A stretch of DNA of 32,113 nt from Burkholderiales bacterium (GTDB taxonomy: Bacteria; Pseudomonadota; Gammaproteobacteria; Burkholderiales; Burkholderiaceae_C). The DNA is taken from assembly GCA_947508055.1 (NCBI GenBank), contig CANNRR010000025.1, positions 1 through 32,113 on the forward strand, in the 5' to 3' direction. A program made the translations under genes and the position numbers. Positions 2,311 through 30,556 of this stretch are shown here, piece by piece. The notes below the pieces were generated by a model, which saw only the letters and a program-made list of their open reading frames with translations, was not told where the DNA came from and searched no databases. The stretch's first letter is position 1. Each line of letters begins with the position of its first letter.

Positions 2311-4575
2311 TTGCTGGATGAAGTTGAGGGGATAGTTCAAGGTCACCGCGATGGGCACGGATTTGTGTCCCGTGATGACGGTGCGCCAGACATCTATTTG
2401 CCGCCCAACGAAATGCGCGCGGTGCTGCACAAGGATCGTGTGAAAGTGCGCATTGTTCGCAGTGACCGCAAAGGACGACCCGAGGGGCGTGTCGTCGAGA
2501 TACTGGAGCGTGCAACACAGCCCATCATTGGCCGATTGTTGCAGGAAAGCGGTGTTTGGCTGGTGGCACCGGAGGATAAGCGCTATGGACAGGATGTCTT
2601 GATTCCCAAAGGCGCCACCAGTGTCGCCAAAGTGGGTCAGGTGGTGGTGGTCGAATTGGTCGAACCTCCTGCCTTGTTCGGGCAGCCGGTTGGCCGTATC
2701 AAAGAGGTCCTTGGTGAGGTGGACGACCCCGGCATGGAAATTGAAATTGCCGTTCGCAAATACAGCGTCCCCCACGAGTTTTCAGAGGCCTGCATTGCGC
2801 TGGCGCGGACCTTGCCAGATAAGGTTCGACCGCAAGATCAGGTCAATCGCATCGATTTGACGGACGTGCCTCTTGTCACAATTGATGGCGAAGATGCGCG
2901 CGACTTTGACGATGCCGTGTATTGCGAGCCCGCATCAAAAGGTCGTGGGAAGTCGTCGGTCAAAGGATGGCGGCTTTTGGTCGGCATCGCAGATGTCAGC
3001 CACTACGTTGCGACCGGTTCGGCGATTGACGTCGATGCATATGACCGTGCGACTAGCGTGTATTTTCCCAGGCGGGTGATCCCCATGCTGCCCGAAAAAC
3101 TGTCAAATGGCTTGTGCTCACTGAATCCTGAAGTTGAGCGTCTAAGCATGGTGTGCGACATGTTTGTAACGGCTGATGGCGAGGTGGAGGCCTATCAGTT
3201 TTATCCGGCCGTGATGTGGAGCCATGCGCGTTTCACCTATACCGAAGTGGCGGCAATTCTTGGCAACACACGCGGACCAGAGGCTATGCGTCGCAAAGAC
3301 CGTGTTGGAGACTTGTTGAACCTGCACGGTGTTTACCAGGCATTGATCAAGTCCAGACGAAAGAGGGGCGCGGTTGATTTTGAAACTACCGAGACTCAGA
3401 TAGTTTGCGATGAAAACGGGCGGATTGAAAAGATTGTGCCCCGTACCCGCAACGTGGCACACCGGGTAATCGAAGAGGCCATGCTTGCCGCCAACGTCTG
3501 CAGCGCAGATTTTATTTCGCAAAGTAAGCATCCTGGCCTTTTTCGGGTTCATGAAGGGCCTACTCCTGAGAAGAAGGAGATGCTACAGAATTACCTGAAG
3601 GCCTCAGGTATCGGTATGTCCATAAGCGACGATCCATCACCAGGTGAGTTCCAAGCAATTGCTGAAGCGACGAAAGACCGTCCGGATGCTCAACAAATCC
3701 ATTCCATGTTGTTGCGTTCCATGCAGCAGGCCATTTACACGCCAACCAACGGCGGGCATTTCGGGTTGGCCTACAGCGCTTACACCCATTTCACCAGTCC
3801 AATTCGCCGCTATCCGGATTTGCTGGTGCACCGGGTTATCAAGTCCATTCTTGAAAAGACGAGATACCAGTTGCCCGTCTTGCCAACACCCGGTGAAGCG
3901 CATGCAAAATTGGCGCGCCGACTCGAGAAGGGCGCAACTTCACGTACAGGGTCGGCGCAACCAGCGCCTAAAAAGACCAACGCTGAAGGAATGGCCTGGT
4001 TGGCAGCGGGTTTGCATTGCAGTGCCAATGAACGCCGAGCGGACGAAGCCAGTCGAGATGTAGAGGCCTGGTTGAAGTGCAAGTACATGAAGGAGCATTT
4101 GGGTGAGGAGTACGGCGGCGTAGTGACAGCGGCAACCAGTTTTGGATTATTCGTTACGCTGGACGCGATGTATGTCGAAGGCCTGGTTCATATAACGGAG
4201 TTAGGTGGAGAATATTTTCGTTTTGACGAAGCGCGTCAGGAGTTGCGTGGTGAGAGGACGGGTACCCGATACGCGATTGGTACCCGGGTACGCATTCAAG
4301 TTAGTCGGGTTGATCTGGATGGTCGCAAGATAGATTTTCGCCTCATACACGAGGGCGATGGATTGGTGTCCCGTGCGTTGCTGGATAAAGGCGCTGGTCG
4401 TGACGAGAAGCCCCGTCCAACCCAAGGTGATCGTTTTGACATCCAGGTTGGTGCGAGGCCCGTATCTTTTGCAGCGGAGTCGCGTAAGCGTGCGGTCGGT
4501 AAGCCCGTTCGATCATCGAAGTTGAAGGAAAAGCCAGCCGATTCTCAAAAGAAAGTGCCCAGAAAGCGCCGGTAG
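2311..4575 (+). CDS. rnr: Ribonuclease R (3'-5' exoribonuclease)
   Basis: RNase R degrades structured RNA 3' to 5' and acts in RNA quality control and tmRNA-linked decay. A cold-shock-like RNA-binding N-terminus (GHRDGHGFVSRDDG) is followed by the RNB catalytic domain with the metal-binding motif DGEDARDFDDAV near residue 192 and HFTSPIRRYPDLLVHR downstream. A polar insert of about 35 residues follows, then CSANERRADEASRD and an S1 domain (from about residue 600). The tail is Lys/Arg rich, ending RKRR. The start is uncertain: the frame is open through the divergent tRNA gene, there is no in-frame ATG, and I used TTG 2311 (754 aa). ATC 2284, placed after a purine-rich AGGAAAGAGAG at 2266-2276, is an alternative. 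It converges with nnr. Confidence 0.93.
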   Translation: MLDEVEGIVQGHRDGHGFVSRDDGAPDIYLPPNEMRAVLHKDRVKVRIVRSDRKGRPEGRVVEILERATQPIIGRLLQESGVWLVAPEDKRYGQDVLIPKGATSVAKVGQVVVVELVEPPALFGQPVGRIKEVLGEVDDPGMEIEIAVRKYSVPHEFSEACIALARTLPDKVRPQDQVNRIDLTDVPLVTIDGEDARDFDDAVYCEPASKGRGKSSVKGWRLLVGIADVSHYVATGSAIDVDAYDRATSVYFPRRVIPMLPEKLSNGLCSLNPEVERLSMVCDMFVTADGEVEAYQFYPAVMWSHARFTYTEVAAILGNTRGPEAMRRKDRVGDLLNLHGVYQALIKSRRKRGAVDFETTETQIVCDENGRIEKIVPRTRNVAHRVIEEAMLAANVCSADFISQSKHPGLFRVHEGPTPEKKEMLQNYLKASGIGMSISDDPSPGEFQAIAEATKDRPDAQQIHSMLLRSMQQAIYTPTNGGHFGLAYSAYTHFTSPIRRYPDLLVHRVIKSILEKTRYQLPVLPTPGEAHAKLARRLEKGATSRTGSAQPAPKKTNAEGMAWLAAGLHCSANERRADEASRDVEAWLKCKYMKEHLGEEYGGVVTAATSFGLFVTLDAMYVEGLVHITELGGEYFRFDEARQELRGERTGTRYAIGTRVRIQVSRVDLDGRKIDFRLIHEGDGLVSRALLDKGAGRDEKPRPTQGDRFDIQVGARPVSFAAESRKRAVGKPVRSSKLKEKPADSQKKVPRKRR

Positions 4576-17475: not shown

Positions 17476-18450
17476 ATGAAAACTGACCTGTCGTCGATAG
17501 TCGCTGCATTGGGTGGCGTACTGCACGGCGATGGGGCACTCGTTGTGACTGGCTTGGCTCCACTGGAGACTGCTACCAGGCATGATGTGAGTTTCCTGAG
17601 CAACCCACGGTACCAGTCACAACTGATTGCGTCACAGGCGGCATGCATCATCGTGTCCTCGGCAATGCAAACCGCCGCAGTTGCCCGCGGGGCCTGTATC
17701 GTCACCGATCAACCGTATTTGTACTTTGCACGGCTGACTCAACTTTGGAAGCGCGGACGGGACGCAAGTATGTACTGTGGAATTCACGCGAGTGCCGTGG
17801 TCGATCCAAAAGCTGTTGTTCATCCCACCGCTACTATTGGCCCTCTGTGCGTGGTGGAACGTGGCGCTCGCATTGGTGCCGATACCGTGCTCAAGTCCCG
17901 TGTGACCGTAGGCGAAGACTGCGTGCTGGGTGAACGTTGCATTGTCCATGCCGGTGCCGTCATCGGAGCTGATGGTTTTGGCTTTGCGCCCAACGGAGTC
18001 GCTTGGGAAAAAATTGCGCAGCTCGGAGCTGTACAGATTGGCAATGACGTGGAAATTGGTGCCAACACCTGCATAGACCGTGGCGCTTTGCAAGACACCG
18101 TGATTGAAGATGGCGTCAAGCTCGATAACCTGATCCAAATTGGTCATAACGTGCGGGTCGGGCGGAACACTGCCATGGCTGGCTGTGTTGGCGTAGCCGG
18201 CAGTGCAACAATTGGTGAACATTGCACAGTTGGCGGTGGTGCCATTATCTTGGGTCACCTCACTTTGGGGCCGGATGTCAACATTTCTGCGGGAACGCTG
18301 GTTAGCAAGTCGATTTTGAAATCGGGGCACTACACTGGAATATTTCCGGTAGACGACAACGCAAGTTGGGAACGCAATGCGGCATCGCTCAAGCAGCTTT
18401 ACAGCTTGCGCGATCGAATCAAGACTTTGGAAAAAGAGATAAAGCAATGA
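17476..18450 (+). CDS. lpxD: UDP-3-O-acylglucosamine N-acyltransferase
   Basis: LpxD adds the second hydroxyacyl chain from acyl-ACP in lipid A synthesis. An N-terminal uridine-binding domain (residues 1-100, including [10 protein letters not shown]) precedes the left-handed beta helix of hexapeptide repeats. The catalytic-His region appears as [14 protein letters not shown], with [11 protein letters not shown] upstream. 324 aa, with a C-terminal helix ([17 protein letters not shown]). TTGGAG precedes ATG 17476. Its stop overlaps the fabZ start (ATGA at 18447). Confidence 0.97.
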
Positions 18451-18887
18451 TGGATATCCACGAAATACTCAAGCAGTTGCCCCATCGCTACCCATTTCTC
18501 ATGGTGGATCGTGTTTTGTCAGTAGAAAAGGGTAAAACTATTCAGGCACTTAAAAACGTGTCTATCAATGAGCCGTTTTTTAATGGGCACTTTCCGCATC
18601 GTCCGGTGATGCCAGGCGTATTGATGCTTGAAGCCATGGCCCAGGCGGCTGCGTTGCTTGCGTTTGACACTCTGGGTGTTACGCCAGACGACAAGACCGT
18701 GTACTACTTTGCCGGCATCGACGGCGCCCGCTTCAAGCGCCCGGTAGAACCCGGCGACCAACTGATCATGGACGTGGAGTTGCTGCGTATGAAGTCCGGT
18801 ATCTTCAAGTTCAAGGGTGTGACCCGTGTCGATGGCAACGTGGTTTGCGAAGCGGAATTGATGTGCACCATGCGCACCATCGCCTGA
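18447..18887 (+). CDS. fabZ: 3-hydroxyacyl-ACP dehydratase FabZ
   Basis: FabZ dehydrates 3-hydroxyacyl-ACP in fatty-acid synthesis and competes with LpxA/LpxD for hydroxyacyl-ACP. This hot-dog-fold protein has [10 protein letters not shown] at residues 13-22, catalytic His48 in [12 protein letters not shown], and Glu62 in MLEAMAQ. 146 aa from ATG 18447, which overlaps the lpxD stop; a second ATG follows at 18450. Base composition rises sharply within the gene (see findings). Confidence 0.97.
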
Positions 18888-27731: not shown

Positions 27732-28208
27732 ATGGCAACCATTCCAATTACCAAGCGCGGCGCAGAGATCCTTAAGGCCGAGTTGCACAAGCTTAAAACA
27801 GTCGAGCGGCCGTGGGTGATCAACGCGATATCCGAGGCGCGCGCGCAAGGTGATCTGAGCGAAAACGCCGAGTACGAGGCCGCCAAGGATCGTCAGGGCT
27901 TTATCGAAGGTCGCATTCAGGAAGTGGAAGGCAAATTGTCGGCGGCGCAGATCATCGATCCATCCGAGTTACACGCCGGTGGTAAGGTCGTTTTTGGTGC
28001 CACCGTAGAGCTCGAAGCAGAAGATACCGGAGAGCGGGTGACCTACCAAATCGTCGGTGAAGACGAGGCGGACCTTAAATTTGGGCGGGTCAATATTGGG
28101 TCACCCATTGCCCGTGCTTTGATCGGCAAGGAAGAGGGCGACACAGCCGAGGTGCAAGCACCGGGCGGAATCAAAGCCTACGAAATCATGGCCGTGCAGT
28201 ACATCTGA
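27732..28208 (+). CDS. greA: Transcription elongation factor GreA
   Basis: GreA enters the RNA polymerase secondary channel and stimulates cleavage of backtracked RNA. The N-terminal coiled coil carries the acidic tip [16 protein letters not shown]. The C-terminal FKBP-like domain includes [16 protein letters not shown] and [15 protein letters not shown]. 158 aa, full length, opening [21 protein letters not shown]. Downstream, the gene order expected in this family is not seen and an accessory-looking region begins. Confidence 0.97.
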
Positions 28209-28333
28209 TGTCATTGGCTGCGATGCGAGTCTTATGGCCACCATGTTCCAATACCTTTAGCAAAGATAAGCCGAAGAATAGGCACATCATTGCCACTGTC
28301 ACGAGACTGTCACCAGCGTCACAAACAAAAAAT

Positions 28334-28361
28334 CCTGCTTTTTTTTACGTAGCAGGCTTTT
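28334..28361 (+). terminator. Terminator downstream of greA
   Basis: CCTGCT (28334-28339) pairs with AGCAGG (28351-28356) and is followed by CTTTTC. An A-rich stretch precedes it, so it may also work on the minus strand, where it would lie just downstream of the tRNA fragment at 28382-28426. The loop is T-rich. Confidence 0.6.
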
Positions 28362-28381
28362 CATATCCCATGGGTCCTAGC

Positions 28382-28426
28382 TGGTTTGATCTGAGAGATT
28401 CGAACTCTCGACCTACGGATTAATAG
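28382..28426 (-). pseudogene. tRNA 3' half (Asn-like), truncated at the anticodon loop
   Basis: On the minus strand from 28426 this reads an anticodon loop CTATTAA, stem strand TCCGT, variable loop AGGTC, a perfect T-arm (GAGAG, TTCGAAT, CTCTC), acceptor strand AGATCAA, A and CCA. The bases before the loop (CTGCT) cannot pair with TCCGT, and no matching 5' acceptor (TTGATCT) occurs nearby. The loop would give anticodon ATT, resembling tRNA-Asn(GTT) with one change. Such 3' halves are typical remnants of integration sites. Confidence 0.65.
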
Positions 28427-29087
28427 AGCAGGAAATCACCTGTTTTCAGCGTCCTGCCCACGGCTTACAGACGCACGCATCACGTAACCGGGTGCCATGC
28501 GTAGTCTCAAACAGCTGTCAGAAGTTACGAAAAGGCTACGCTATGAATGAGGACAACTTGGACGATTCCATGAATCGCACGATATCGGTCTGCGCTTGGC
28601 TGTTGGATGTTGCTCAGCGCTCAGTAGATGAGTAGACGTCACTGACGCATTGGCGCTTCCATTGATTCGTGAAGTGCTAAAGGAATGCGGTTGGCCAAAA
28701 CAGTCTGTACTCGGGTGGGAGGTGGCAGGCAATTTTGCAACCTTACTCATACCGCAGCCCAGACTGCGCGTCTATGCCCGCGAGACCGTGATTGCGGACC
28801 TGGCCGGATTCCTGATGCCGCACGCACGGCGCGCACGCCAGCCCTCGTAGGGCGTTTTGAAGTAGTCTATTCGCACGCTCAGGTAAAGGGCTCTGAGGAG
28901 AATGCCATGGACCCAGAGCGTGGCGTGCAGCCCATGAAACGCCCGTGTCCCCCAATTTCTGGGCATTAGGGCACGTGCCCCAACTACCACTACAGGCCCA
29001 ATAGAACAACCATTTACACCCATTCCTGGGGCGACGTGGTCGCGGGTACGAATTCCAAACCGGGACTCGAATCCTGCGCTACAGTAG

Positions 29088-29121
29088 TGGCTCACTTGCC
29101 CATTGGAGTGAGCCATTCTTT
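29088..29121 (+). terminator. Terminator-like hairpin of unknown transcript
   Basis: TGGCTCACT (29088-29096) pairs perfectly over 9 bp with AGTGAGCCA (29107-29115), followed by TTCTTT. No gene is identified upstream on plus, so the transcript it would end is unknown. Confidence 0.45.
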
Positions 29122-29218
29122 GAGAGCTGCCTTGGAGTGCGAATCGGCCGCAAAGCCGCATGAACACTGGTTTTGCGCGAAAGTGGCGGGGTCTTCCGTC
29201 CGCTCCGACACTCTGCAT

Positions 29219-29258
29219 AAGGGTTTTCTGCTACTAAAGTAATAGCAAACCCTTTTCT
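29219..29258 (+). terminator. Terminator-like hairpin of unknown transcript
   Basis: AAGGGTT (29219-29225) pairs with AACCCTT (29248-29254), and TGCTA (29229-29233) pairs with TAGCA (29243-29247) across a 3-nt bulge; TTCTTG follows. It lies about 90 bp beyond the 3' end of the minus-strand tRNA-Leu, but the T tract is on plus. Confidence 0.5.
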
Positions 29259-29345
29259 TGTTCCAAAAGTGGGATGTGGCTGCATCAAGCAGCAGGTTTT
29301 GCCGCCTTCATTACCCTGTCGGATAAATGTGTTTGTAAGTGCAAA

Positions 29346-29660
29346 TGGTGCCTGAGACCGGAATCGAACCGGTACGCCCGTTATTCACGAAGCGGCGGAT
29401 TTTCTTCACACTACGGTTTTCACCGCCGACCGAGGTCGTTCGTGCGCTGGACTATGCCTTGACCGTTGCGTTTTCGCTTTAGGTCCGCGCCGTCTAGTCT
29501 CTACACCTTCACGACCATCGCTGGCCGAGCTTGGCTCGGTGTTGCCTCGATCGTCTCGATCAGGGGTTTCGCCGAATTTGACGCGATTCACTCGGGAACT
29601 TTCGCCGCCCGGTGCTCAATTTATTAAGTCCGATGTGTCTACCTATTTCACCACTCAGGC
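29346..29660 (-). tRNA. tRNA-Leu(UAA) split by a group I intron
   Basis: The 5' exon is 29660-29626 (35 nt) and the 3' exon 29403-29346 (58 nt including CCA). Joined, they give acceptor GCCTGAG/CTCAGGC, a D-arm with GTAGAC, an anticodon stem (GGA/TCC core) with loop CTTAAAA (anticodon TAA, read as leucine), a long variable arm of 21 nt as in class II tRNAs, T-arm ACCGG-TTCGATT-CCGGT, discriminator A and encoded CCA. The break is after U34, the site used by cyanobacterial and plastid tRNA-Leu(UAA) introns. The outermost anticodon-stem pair (T/C) is mismatched. Ordinary tRNA finders would probably miss this gene because of the 222-nt insert. Confidence 0.92.
29404..29625 (-). ncRNA. Group I self-splicing intron (ORF-less, 222 nt) in tRNA-Leu anticodon
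   Basis: On the minus strand the core elements read in order: P, AAATTCGGCGAAACC (29579-29565); Q, CCGAGCCAAGC (29539-29529); R, GTGTAGAGACTAGACGGC (29506-29489); S, AAGGCATAGTCC (29460-29449). P7 forms from GACTA (29499-29495) and TAGTC (29454-29450), making the guanosine site. P8 is GACC/GGTC (29485-29482 with 29464-29461). In P1 the exon end CUU pairs with the guide GAG (29617-29615), leaving the expected U.G at the splice site. The intron ends in G (29404, omega-G). A P9-region hairpin has a GAAA tetraloop. P, R and S closely match my memory of the Azoarcus tRNA-Ile intron, so subgroup IC3 is likely. There is no room for a homing endonuclease. Confidence 0.93.
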
Positions 29661-29671
29661 CCAAGTTGGGC

Positions 29672-29677
29672 ATTCTA
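29672..29677 (-). promoter_or_regulatory. Candidate -10 element of the intron-containing tRNA-Leu
   Basis: TAGAAT on the minus strand ends 11 bases before the tRNA 5' end, so the 5' leader would be only a few bases. The -35 region is weak (TTACGC at 16 spacing). The bases between it and the tRNA (GCCCAA, C, TTGGGC) form a small palindrome that includes the first tRNA bases. Confidence 0.45.
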
Positions 29678-29816
29678 CCCGTGTGTAAATCGTGCGTAAC
29701 TTGGAGCACAATCGCCCACCAAGTGATCGGGGTCAAACACAAGCCAACACAAGTCACGCCAACGGAAAAGTGGGGTTAAGATGTGTTCAAACAAGCTACT
29801 TGGTGTTGGGTCTTGA

Positions 29817-29873
29817 CTTAAAGACCGCCGCTTCGTGAATAGCGGGCGTACCGGTTCGATTCTGGTCTCGGCA
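29817..29873 (+). pseudogene. Inverted, intron-less 3' half of tRNA-Leu(UAA)
   Basis: From CTTAAAG in the anticodon loop to GGCA at the acceptor end, this plus-strand sequence repeats the joined exon sequence of the split tRNA-Leu. I count four substitutions and a one-base deletion in about 55 positions, and the intron is absent. No 5' half precedes it and CCA is lost (TCG follows), so it is not a working tRNA. The T-arm still pairs through a G.U. Confidence 0.8.
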
Positions 29874-29923
29874 TCGTAGATATTTTCAAGCAGTATTGCT
29901 CTTTCAGTAGCTACACTCCAACT

Positions 29924-30556
29924 ATGCCACGCTACAACGCTCCATTTGAAATCCATGTCCATGGTCAGGTGACATTGCGCAAGGATGTGCGCTTTGAGCA
30001 TCTTCAGGACGCGCTTAAGCCACTATGGAAATATGCGGGGGCACGGTCGCTCTCAGATGGGGCCAATAGCGTCTATGAGGATGAACCAGGAATTAAACTG
30101 GATGCCGATGAACATTTGCTCCAGATGTGCTGGACCGTGGCGGGTGACCACGATTTTCGACAGACTTTGGATGAGTTCTGTATGAACTTGAACGAGATTG
30201 CGGATGCTGGTGCAGCCATTGAAGTGACGTTTTATGACACCGATTTTGACGAGGAAGATGGTCCGCCGGGAACTGAATCAAGAGATGACTTTGTAATGTT
30301 ATTCGTCGGTCCCAATCCGGCTGCCATCATGCAGGTCCAGCGAGATTTGTTGGTGCAAGATGTGATCGGTTTGATGGAACGGCATTTTGATGGAGCCGAA
30401 TTAAGTGGGGTGATCGGTGAAGTCGATAAATTATTCGCCCAAAGGTTTGATGCTCTGGTCAGTTCGCTGGCGCTTGGCAAGCCTCCTAACGGGTCTGGTG
30501 GCAATTATGGCGGTGGGCACGGTGGCGGGGGGCGTAAACCACGCCACTTGCACTGA
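29924..30556 (+). CDS. Conserved hypothetical protein (possibly DUF6806 family)
   Basis: This is a 210-aa soluble, acidic protein with no signal peptide or membrane helix. It opens MPRYNAPFEIHVHGQVTLRKDV and contains HLLQMCWTVAGDHDFRQTLDEFC, an acidic patch (YDTDFDEED) and QVQRDLLVQDVIGLMERHFDG. The tail is Gly-rich and basic (GGGHGGGGRKPRHLH). I recall similar proteins widely in Burkholderiales under a DUF6806-type name, but function is unknown. ATG 29924 is the only good start; no clear ribosome-binding site precedes it. The tRNA fragment at 29817-29873 lies just upstream, and the HD-GYP gene follows after 99 bp. Confidence 0.8.
   Translation: MPRYNAPFEIHVHGQVTLRKDVRFEHLQDALKPLWKYAGARSLSDGANSVYEDEPGIKLDADEHLLQMCWTVAGDHDFRQTLDEFCMNLNEIADAGAAIEVTFYDTDFDEEDGPPGTESRDDFVMLFVGPNPAAIMQVQRDLLVQDVIGLMERHFDGAELSGVIGEVDKLFAQRFDALVSSLALGKPPNGSGGNYGGGHGGGGRKPRHLH

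Follow-up and report, generated by a model that had tools for sequence, protein, structure and literature searches.

The tRNA-Leu(UAA) gene at positions 29346–29660 of the window, by which we mean the whole 32,113-nucleotide stretch of Burkholderiales DNA analysed here, is probably a spare or 'rescue' copy, brought by an integrative element that split the resident tRNA-Leu(UAA) gene. On the evidence of its sequence, the gene is interrupted by a group I intron. Half of another tRNA-Leu(UAA) lies ∼155 nt from it; this half, absent from the preliminary description of the locus, changes what the gene is.

The interrupted gene and the family of its intron

The gene lies on the reverse strand and comprises a 5′ exon of 35 nt (29626–29660, position 1 to U34), a 222-nt intron in the anticodon loop (29404–29625) and a 3′ exon of 58 nt (29346–29403, A35 to CCA). 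ARAGORN reads the joined exons as a 93-nt tRNA-Leu(taa). The same 93 nt are found uninterrupted, and identical over both exons (93/93), in a genome of the same genus, G001, and this exact empty site places the insertion after U34. The preliminary description, in which a 222-nt group I intron divides the anticodon after U34 of a betaproteobacterial gene and the exons join into a complete tRNA-Leu, is borne out by this empty site, by a match to the Rfam model RF00028 and by covariation; the host belongs to the order Burkholderiales. That description had looked to the Rfam group I covariance model as a check, and the model does match (29636–29429, 39.0 bits, E 2.2e-8, model positions 1–253), though under its gathering score of 50, so that the intron is missed by default annotation. 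ARAGORN run without intron search does not call this tRNA-Leu gene.

The intron folds with 54 of 55 pairs formed, the sole exception being a C.A in P4. The group I core from P3 to P8 is present (P3 6/6, P4 5/6, P7 5/5, P8 4/4), and P7 is perfect, as had been described. The expected ends are likewise both there: P1 pairs CUU with GAG and has a U.G at the 5′ splice site, and the last intron base is the G at 29404. Among 15 introns including that of the window, 97.3% of 804 cells are paired and 26 of the 55 pairs are changed on both sides, a level reached by none of 500 shuffles; the helices were drawn on the window sequence, which favours this structure over slid versions. We infer from the sequence that the intron splices in the cell.

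A search of the window's own genome (G000, an assembly rated 91.8% complete) for another tRNA-Leu(UAA), a check also suggested at the outset, found no intact second copy; the joined tRNA matches only the two exons and the decayed half at 29815–29873. From the absence of another tRNA-Leu(UAA), the interrupted gene would be essential for survival. A scan of 29200–29930 for sigma-70 promoters found none.

In a tree of 169 rows, the window intron falls within a tRNA-Leu clade of 19 rows (SH-aLRT 97), all betaproteobacterial except for one unclassified Pseudomonadota MAG. Fourteen of the 18 tRNA-Ile introns form a clade of their own (SH-aLRT 99) and 25 of the 26 cyanobacterial introns another (SH-aLRT 100). 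The tree was built quickly, from 241 columns, and has long branches, and its deep order is therefore untrustworthy; duplicates were left out (L042=L200, L009=L169, L039=L156, L047=L082). Over 173 core columns, the identity of the window intron averages 0.84 to the three other loci that share its scar (L186, L038 and L104, also its nearest introns by BLAST) and 0.78 to 17 other Burkholderiales tRNA-Leu introns, against 0.70 to a tRNA-Ile intron of the same genome and 0.61 to 26 cyanobacterial tRNA-Leu introns. The four introns with the shared scar are scattered in the 19-row clade and do not form one clade. The earlier suggestion of a cyanobacterial insertion site joined to an Azoarcus-like core is not borne out by these comparisons, nor by the separation of the Leu clade from the Ile and cyanobacterial clades in the tree of tRNA introns that had been proposed as a check; the family to which the window intron belongs is widespread, and the intron is ordinary within it.

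The second group I intron of the same genome interrupts tRNA-Ile(CAU) (L003:3219–3497; G000:C9 about 18218–18496, forward strand) and matches RF00028 with 53.1 bits. That the window intron hopped from this gene, with its guide changed from GUG to GAG, is extremely improbable, even though the two introns share one genome and a common core with 70% identity over the core columns; the window intron sits inside the supported Leu clade and resembles tRNA-Leu introns from other genera more closely, and such an origin is disfavoured by both the tree and the core identities. Introns of the Azoarcus tRNA-Ile(CAU) type have a core similar to that of the window and are represented in the same genome by this second intron, but differ in tRNA, in guide (GUG) and in clade. 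The cyanobacterial and plastid tRNA-Leu(UAA) introns share with the window intron the tRNA, the site after U34, the guide GAG and the core, although the cyanobacterial ones are placed, with one exception, in the separate clade noted above. The cyanobacterial and plastid genes are known as resident genes, not as cargo of elements. A gammaproteobacterial tRNA-Leu intron was reportedly described in J. Bacteriol. in 2002. Among other bacteria, the available text of two papers names tRNA-Ile2 introns for Acidovorax and Burkholderia (PMC8450103) and putative tRNA-Leu-TAA introns in Beggiatoa and Thiomargarita (PMC4853749).

Introns of this kind are not rare; besides Burkholderiales, they occur in other Pseudomonadota, in cyanobacteria and further phyla, and on viral contigs. 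In searches of 399 genomes of the order and 398 of the phylum, RF00028 matched 40 and 34, respectively, the interrupted genes including, as judged by eye, tRNA-Leu(UAA), Ile(CAU), Arg(CCU), Asn, Thr and Ser; the further hosts in the order and phylum include Asn (L019, L028, L040), Thr (L023, L025), Ser (L043) and Arg (L046, L058–L061). A pattern scan of named genomes gave at least 119 stretches, a figure that includes some chance matches and is not an estimate of prevalence. The 80 stretches that were read, among the matches listed, are mostly tRNA-Leu(UAA) genes, with a few chance matches and many MAGs; by title, these genes come from Pseudomonadota, cyanobacteria, Acidobacteriota, Planctomycetia, Chloroflexi and Clostridia. 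Together with 30 loci from the genome searches, the 119 among the matches listed make 149, of which 114 have an intron-bearing tRNA-Leu; the calls are those of intron-mode ARAGORN, apart from a few that were re-read by script (L042 and L200, called Phe(aaa), were re-read as Leu). Classification of hosts by ARAGORN on all candidate joins proved too permissive and was replaced by exon reading and intron-mode ARAGORN. In twelve tRNA-Ile(CAU)-like genes (L011, L013, L014, L041, L048–L055) the intron seems, by eye, to lie between U33 and C34 and not after the anticodon, and to have a P9 of the Leu type.

The same pattern is found in 42 viral contigs from IMG/VR (L249–L290), 31 of which have an intron-bearing tRNA-Leu(UAA); their viral character was checked by PHROGs in three of the 31. 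Another tRNA, often tRNA-Ile(UAU) or Met, is present on the stretch in 26 of these 31. According to a 2014 review, phage group I introns were known solely in protein genes (PMC3984707). On one viral contig (L265:69–1519), the intron-bearing tRNA-Leu(UAA) lies 62 nt from an integrase gene (phrog_1), and its intron is placed by the tree among those of the type B loci described below. Plasmid records also match tRNA-Leu plus intron (1285, of which 1281 at 60–80%). Three were inspected, from E. coli, Aeromonas and Acinetobacter (L291:4995–5290, L292, L293); by eye their exons seem complete, the tRNA is unannotated in the table used, and resistance genes lie near all three loci, with aac(3)-II genes in two. 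The one plasmid intron scanned matches RF00028 with 39.8 bits, and an att-like GGACTTAAAA lies 157 nt upstream in L291.

A split tRNA half at the ancestral site

Positions 29815–29873, on the forward strand, hold a relic of the 3′ half of the original tRNA-Leu(UAA) (query 31–90, 92% identical), which we read as attR; the 154-nt spacer between it and the interrupted gene (29661–29814) is interpreted as the terminal part of an integrated element. On the same strand follows a DUF6806 gene (29924–30556, PF20621, E 1.4e-84) that marks the ancestral place of tRNA-Leu(UAA). The usual order in intronless relatives is tRNA-Gly, tRNA-Cys, tRNA-Leu(UAA), DUF6806 gene, and the scar upstream of the DUF6806 gene occupies the place of the intact tRNA in G001 and of displaced halves in G011 and G019. 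Isotypes match, a tRNA-Leu(UAA) adjoining a tRNA-Leu(UAA) scar. Only the 3′ half of the host tRNA remains in the window; neither a separate 5′ half nor attL was found in its own fragmented assembly (389 contigs, 6.8% contamination).

The flanks of 115 intron-bearing bacterial loci, including the window, were scanned over 450 nt per side, as were those of 31 viral loci and of 26 intronless controls, of which 24 belong to the window's genus. Each flank was 300 nt or longer at 107 of the bacterial and 24 of the viral loci, and the 115 still contain duplicate records. A split half accompanies the intron-bearing tRNA at 12 of the 115 loci (11 distinct), always upstream, and none of the 26 controls has one within 450 nt per side. 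In type A loci (the window, L104, L038 and L186) it is a 3′ half on the opposite strand, 154–167 nt from the spare, whereas in type B loci (L042/L200, L115, L135, L146, L168, L183, L188) it is a 5′ half on the same strand, at 162–197 nt. Weak half-like matches at L132, L185, L194 and L196, full-length matches at L116 and L117, and matches to the T-arm were not counted. The introns were the means by which all loci were found, and the share of intronless spares is therefore not derivable from these counts.

We consider it unlikely that the intron is an ordinary resident, inherited or gained at the native gene, beside an unrelated inverted duplication at 29815–29873. It is the half that occupies the native gene place of relatives, whereas the copy with the intron is in inverted orientation, without Gly and Cys as neighbours, and the same pair recurs at the three other type A loci at 165–167 nt, against 154 in the window. 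A tRNA-Cys lies upstream of two of 29 intron-bearing Burkholderiales genes compared with 16 of 23 intronless ones, the latter mostly from one genus. A resident intron would nevertheless suit L089 and L192, intron-bearing Burkholderiales genes that sit behind tRNA-Cys in the ancestral cluster, and the 103 of 115 intron-bearing loci that, like all 31 viral loci, have no split half in the 450 nt on either side.

A whole element is preserved at L104, from Rhodoferax sp. Gw_SlAct_bin_10 (genome G824), with which window positions 29346–29871, spacer included, are collinear (73% over 540 bp). The host tRNA-Leu of G824 is cut into a 5′ half (1–43, C130:24001–23959) and a 3′ half (31–93, 9120–9058), the two being 14.8 kb apart with the intron-bearing tRNA-Leu(UAA) between them, beside attR. 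Their acceptor strands are complementary (GCCCGAG and CTCGGGC), a 13-bp repeat, GACTTAAAATCCG, stands at both ends of the element, and a PF00589 integrase adjoins attL; ParB-like, helicase, primase and HNH genes lie further inside. No further tRNA-Leu(UAA) was found in the search of G824. Contig C142 and the end of C130 share a 127-bp overlap, and C142 ends exactly at the attachment core (L306:1, L305:16960–17086), which would fit a branch between integrated and empty sites in a mixed population. A phmmer search of 116 loci for relatives of the Rhodoferax integrase matched only the integrase itself.

The second half was sought in nine split-half genomes and in that of L109. It was found in three of the nine, at a distance of 68 kb in S. 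stutzeri KOS6, 51 kb in Eoetvoesiella caeni and 13.8 kb in a Rhodanobacter MAG, and not in the other six. In these three a PF00589 integrase adjoins attR, and the junctions lie within the anticodon loop, CTTAAAA. Pairing between the acceptor strands of the two halves is complete in KOS6 and E. caeni and has one mismatch in Rhodanobacter. The integrases are alike at 93% between KOS6 and E. caeni and 84% between KOS6 and Rhodanobacter; those of Rhodoferax and KOS6 are 30% alike and represent two distantly related lineages. Homologues of the type B integrase at 67–69% occur in three of 369 genomes, at sites read as intergenic terminators where no tRNA was called, and were not counted. A TrbI gene lies beside the spare at four of the seven type B loci (L135, L183, L188, L200), with CagX also at L183; neither was seen in the frames scanned of L115, L146 and L168. 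Over the seven type B loci, the mean identity of the 5′ exon is 0.97 among the spares and 0.85 among the host halves. Spares that are nearly identical across hosts whose own halves differ are as expected of cargo.

Both halves are present in four genomes (G824, G828, G829 and G831), and in each the host tRNA is split, the 5′ half being followed by element DNA and not by a rebuilt tRNA. No rebuilt tRNA-Leu(UAA) was found in G824, G828 or G831, nor in the window's own, incomplete assembly; an additional full-length match in E. caeni is tRNA-Leu(CAA), and extra matches also occur in G833, G834 and G105. These observations make it very improbable that the window holds a canonical tRNA-targeting island, in which the tRNA was rebuilt, the half is the usual displaced fragment and the intron arrived later by reverse splicing. 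Rebuilding is the stated rule for tDNA islands in the available text of PMC4383910, and two genomes of the window's genus, G011 and G029, fit such an island; in each, one contig has a complete tRNA-Leu following Gly-Cys, and another has a displaced 3′ half ahead of the DUF6806 gene, at a distance of about 1 kb in G029.

The window is classed as the leftover of an element, not as a working one, because no element integrase was found. Its own genome has four matches to the Rhodoferax integrase at 27–31%, none on the window contig, the best (29%) being on another contig, and positions 28150–29345 show no resemblance to the Rhodoferax element. The ∼1.1 kb that follow greA (28208–29346) are without a recognised gene. 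A rearrangement breakpoint or a misjoin may lie somewhere in 28208–29346, since greA is far from the tRNA-Leu site in relatives that have both on one contig (G001, G007 and G010).

A different interruption is seen in G007, of the same genus (L232:1914–4584), where a 2.58-kb group II intron (RF00029, 66.3 bits), encoding a reverse transcriptase-maturase of 651 aa, divides tRNA-Leu(UAA) at the anticodon loop; within this intron, at 4031–4115, lies an intronless tRNA-Leu(UAA) gene.

The attachment core and phage Daredevil

In the mechanism that we favour, a tyrosine integrase would recombine at the anticodon loop of the resident tRNA-Leu(UAA), which would be cut in two and not rebuilt, and the cell would come to rely on the tRNA-Leu(UAA) of the element, ∼155–197 nt inside one of its ends. 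This spare would be obliged to keep the anticodon loop, which is the target of the integrase. A group I intron in the loop would remove the target from the DNA, and self-splicing would restore the tRNA in RNA; such hiding of the core would be the reason for which the intron is retained. In the window, most of the element has, we infer, been lost, and the scar at 29815–29873 and the spare tRNA would be what is left.

The interrupted loop coincides with the core in the sequences compared. In all 12 elements, including that of the Gordonia phage Daredevil, the joined exons match the end of the element across the splice site, over 11–24 nt (8 in the decayed window), and it follows from the position of the intron that the DNA of the interrupted gene does not contain this run. 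The element's own core is shorter than this run, since part of the run is host sequence in integrated copies; it measures 13 bp in Rhodoferax and about 7–10 nt in the conjugative elements.

Daredevil is described in the available text of PMC10865867 as integrating at tRNA-Lys-TTT without rebuilding it, as having no tRNA of its own and as forming clear plaques; a figure legend in the same paper gives tRNA-Ile2-CAT instead. The phage nevertheless appears to encode a tRNA-Lys(UUU) hidden by a group I intron. ARAGORN in intron mode finds an unannotated tRNA-Lys(ttt) with a 238-nt intron at L322:2878–3189 (forward strand); the BLAST match lies ∼0.6–0.7 kb from the integrase gene. P3, P4, P5, P6, P7 and P8 of the intron are fully paired and P2 and P5a poorly, with 45 of 55 pairs overall in a forced alignment and an Rfam score of 15.4 bits. 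A 16-nt run ∼153 nt upstream of this putative spare, CGGACTTTTAATCCGC, equals the joined exons and is taken as the putative attachment core of Daredevil. The clear plaques speak against a spare that works well.

Four relatives of Daredevil, namely Mollymur, BrutonGaster and OneUp (named in PMC10865867) and Bantam (found by BLAST), have intronless spares, which have 7–10 nt through the anticodon in common with the upstream sequence. In these small numbers, a spare seems to have either stems that have diverged or an interruption. The intronless spares of these four relatives and of the group II intron of G007 are points against the favoured reading.

Relation to known systems and implications

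We read the window as the leftover of a tRNA-dependent integration with an intron-bearing spare, the mechanism being known from actinobacteriophages and the intron-bearing variant apparently new. Rescue by an element-borne tRNA has been shown by experiment in tRNA-dependent lysogeny (Guerrero-Bustamante and Hatfull 2024, PMC10865867), and that system, as far as the accessible text describes it, has in common with the elements considered here a tyrosine integrase, a short core of about 10 bp within a tRNA gene, a host tRNA that is not rebuilt and an element tRNA of the same isotype. The present elements differ in being found in Pseudomonadota, in carrying conjugation genes in some cases and replication genes in the 14.8-kb one, and in having as spare a tRNA-Leu(UAA) interrupted at the core by a group I intron; the text of PMC10865867 uses 'intron' a single time, in the title of a reference. 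Canonical tDNA islands (Islander, PMC4383910) share the tyrosine integrase, the crossover in the anticodon loop and a displaced tRNA fragment, but restore the split gene at the junction, which the present elements do not. The literature covered, mainly titles and abstracts and with subscription papers mostly outside it, contained no link between group I introns and the spare tRNAs of integrating elements.

The movement of endonuclease-less tRNA introns between lineages is an old open question. Carriage as cargo on integrating elements would give such introns a direct route from one lineage to another. A broader proposal, which we put forward tentatively and regard as somewhat doubtful, is that the self-splicing intron acts as an attachment-site lock on elements and phages, and that small tRNA introns lacking an endonuclease would then move between distant bacteria with the spare tRNAs of conjugative elements and phages as a main vehicle. 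The reading given here would extend tRNA-dependent integration from actinobacteriophages to elements of Pseudomonadota. Intron-bearing spares are missed by tRNA finders, seemingly so in a published phage described as having no tRNA of its own, and their introns may represent a function at the level of DNA for a self-splicing intron.
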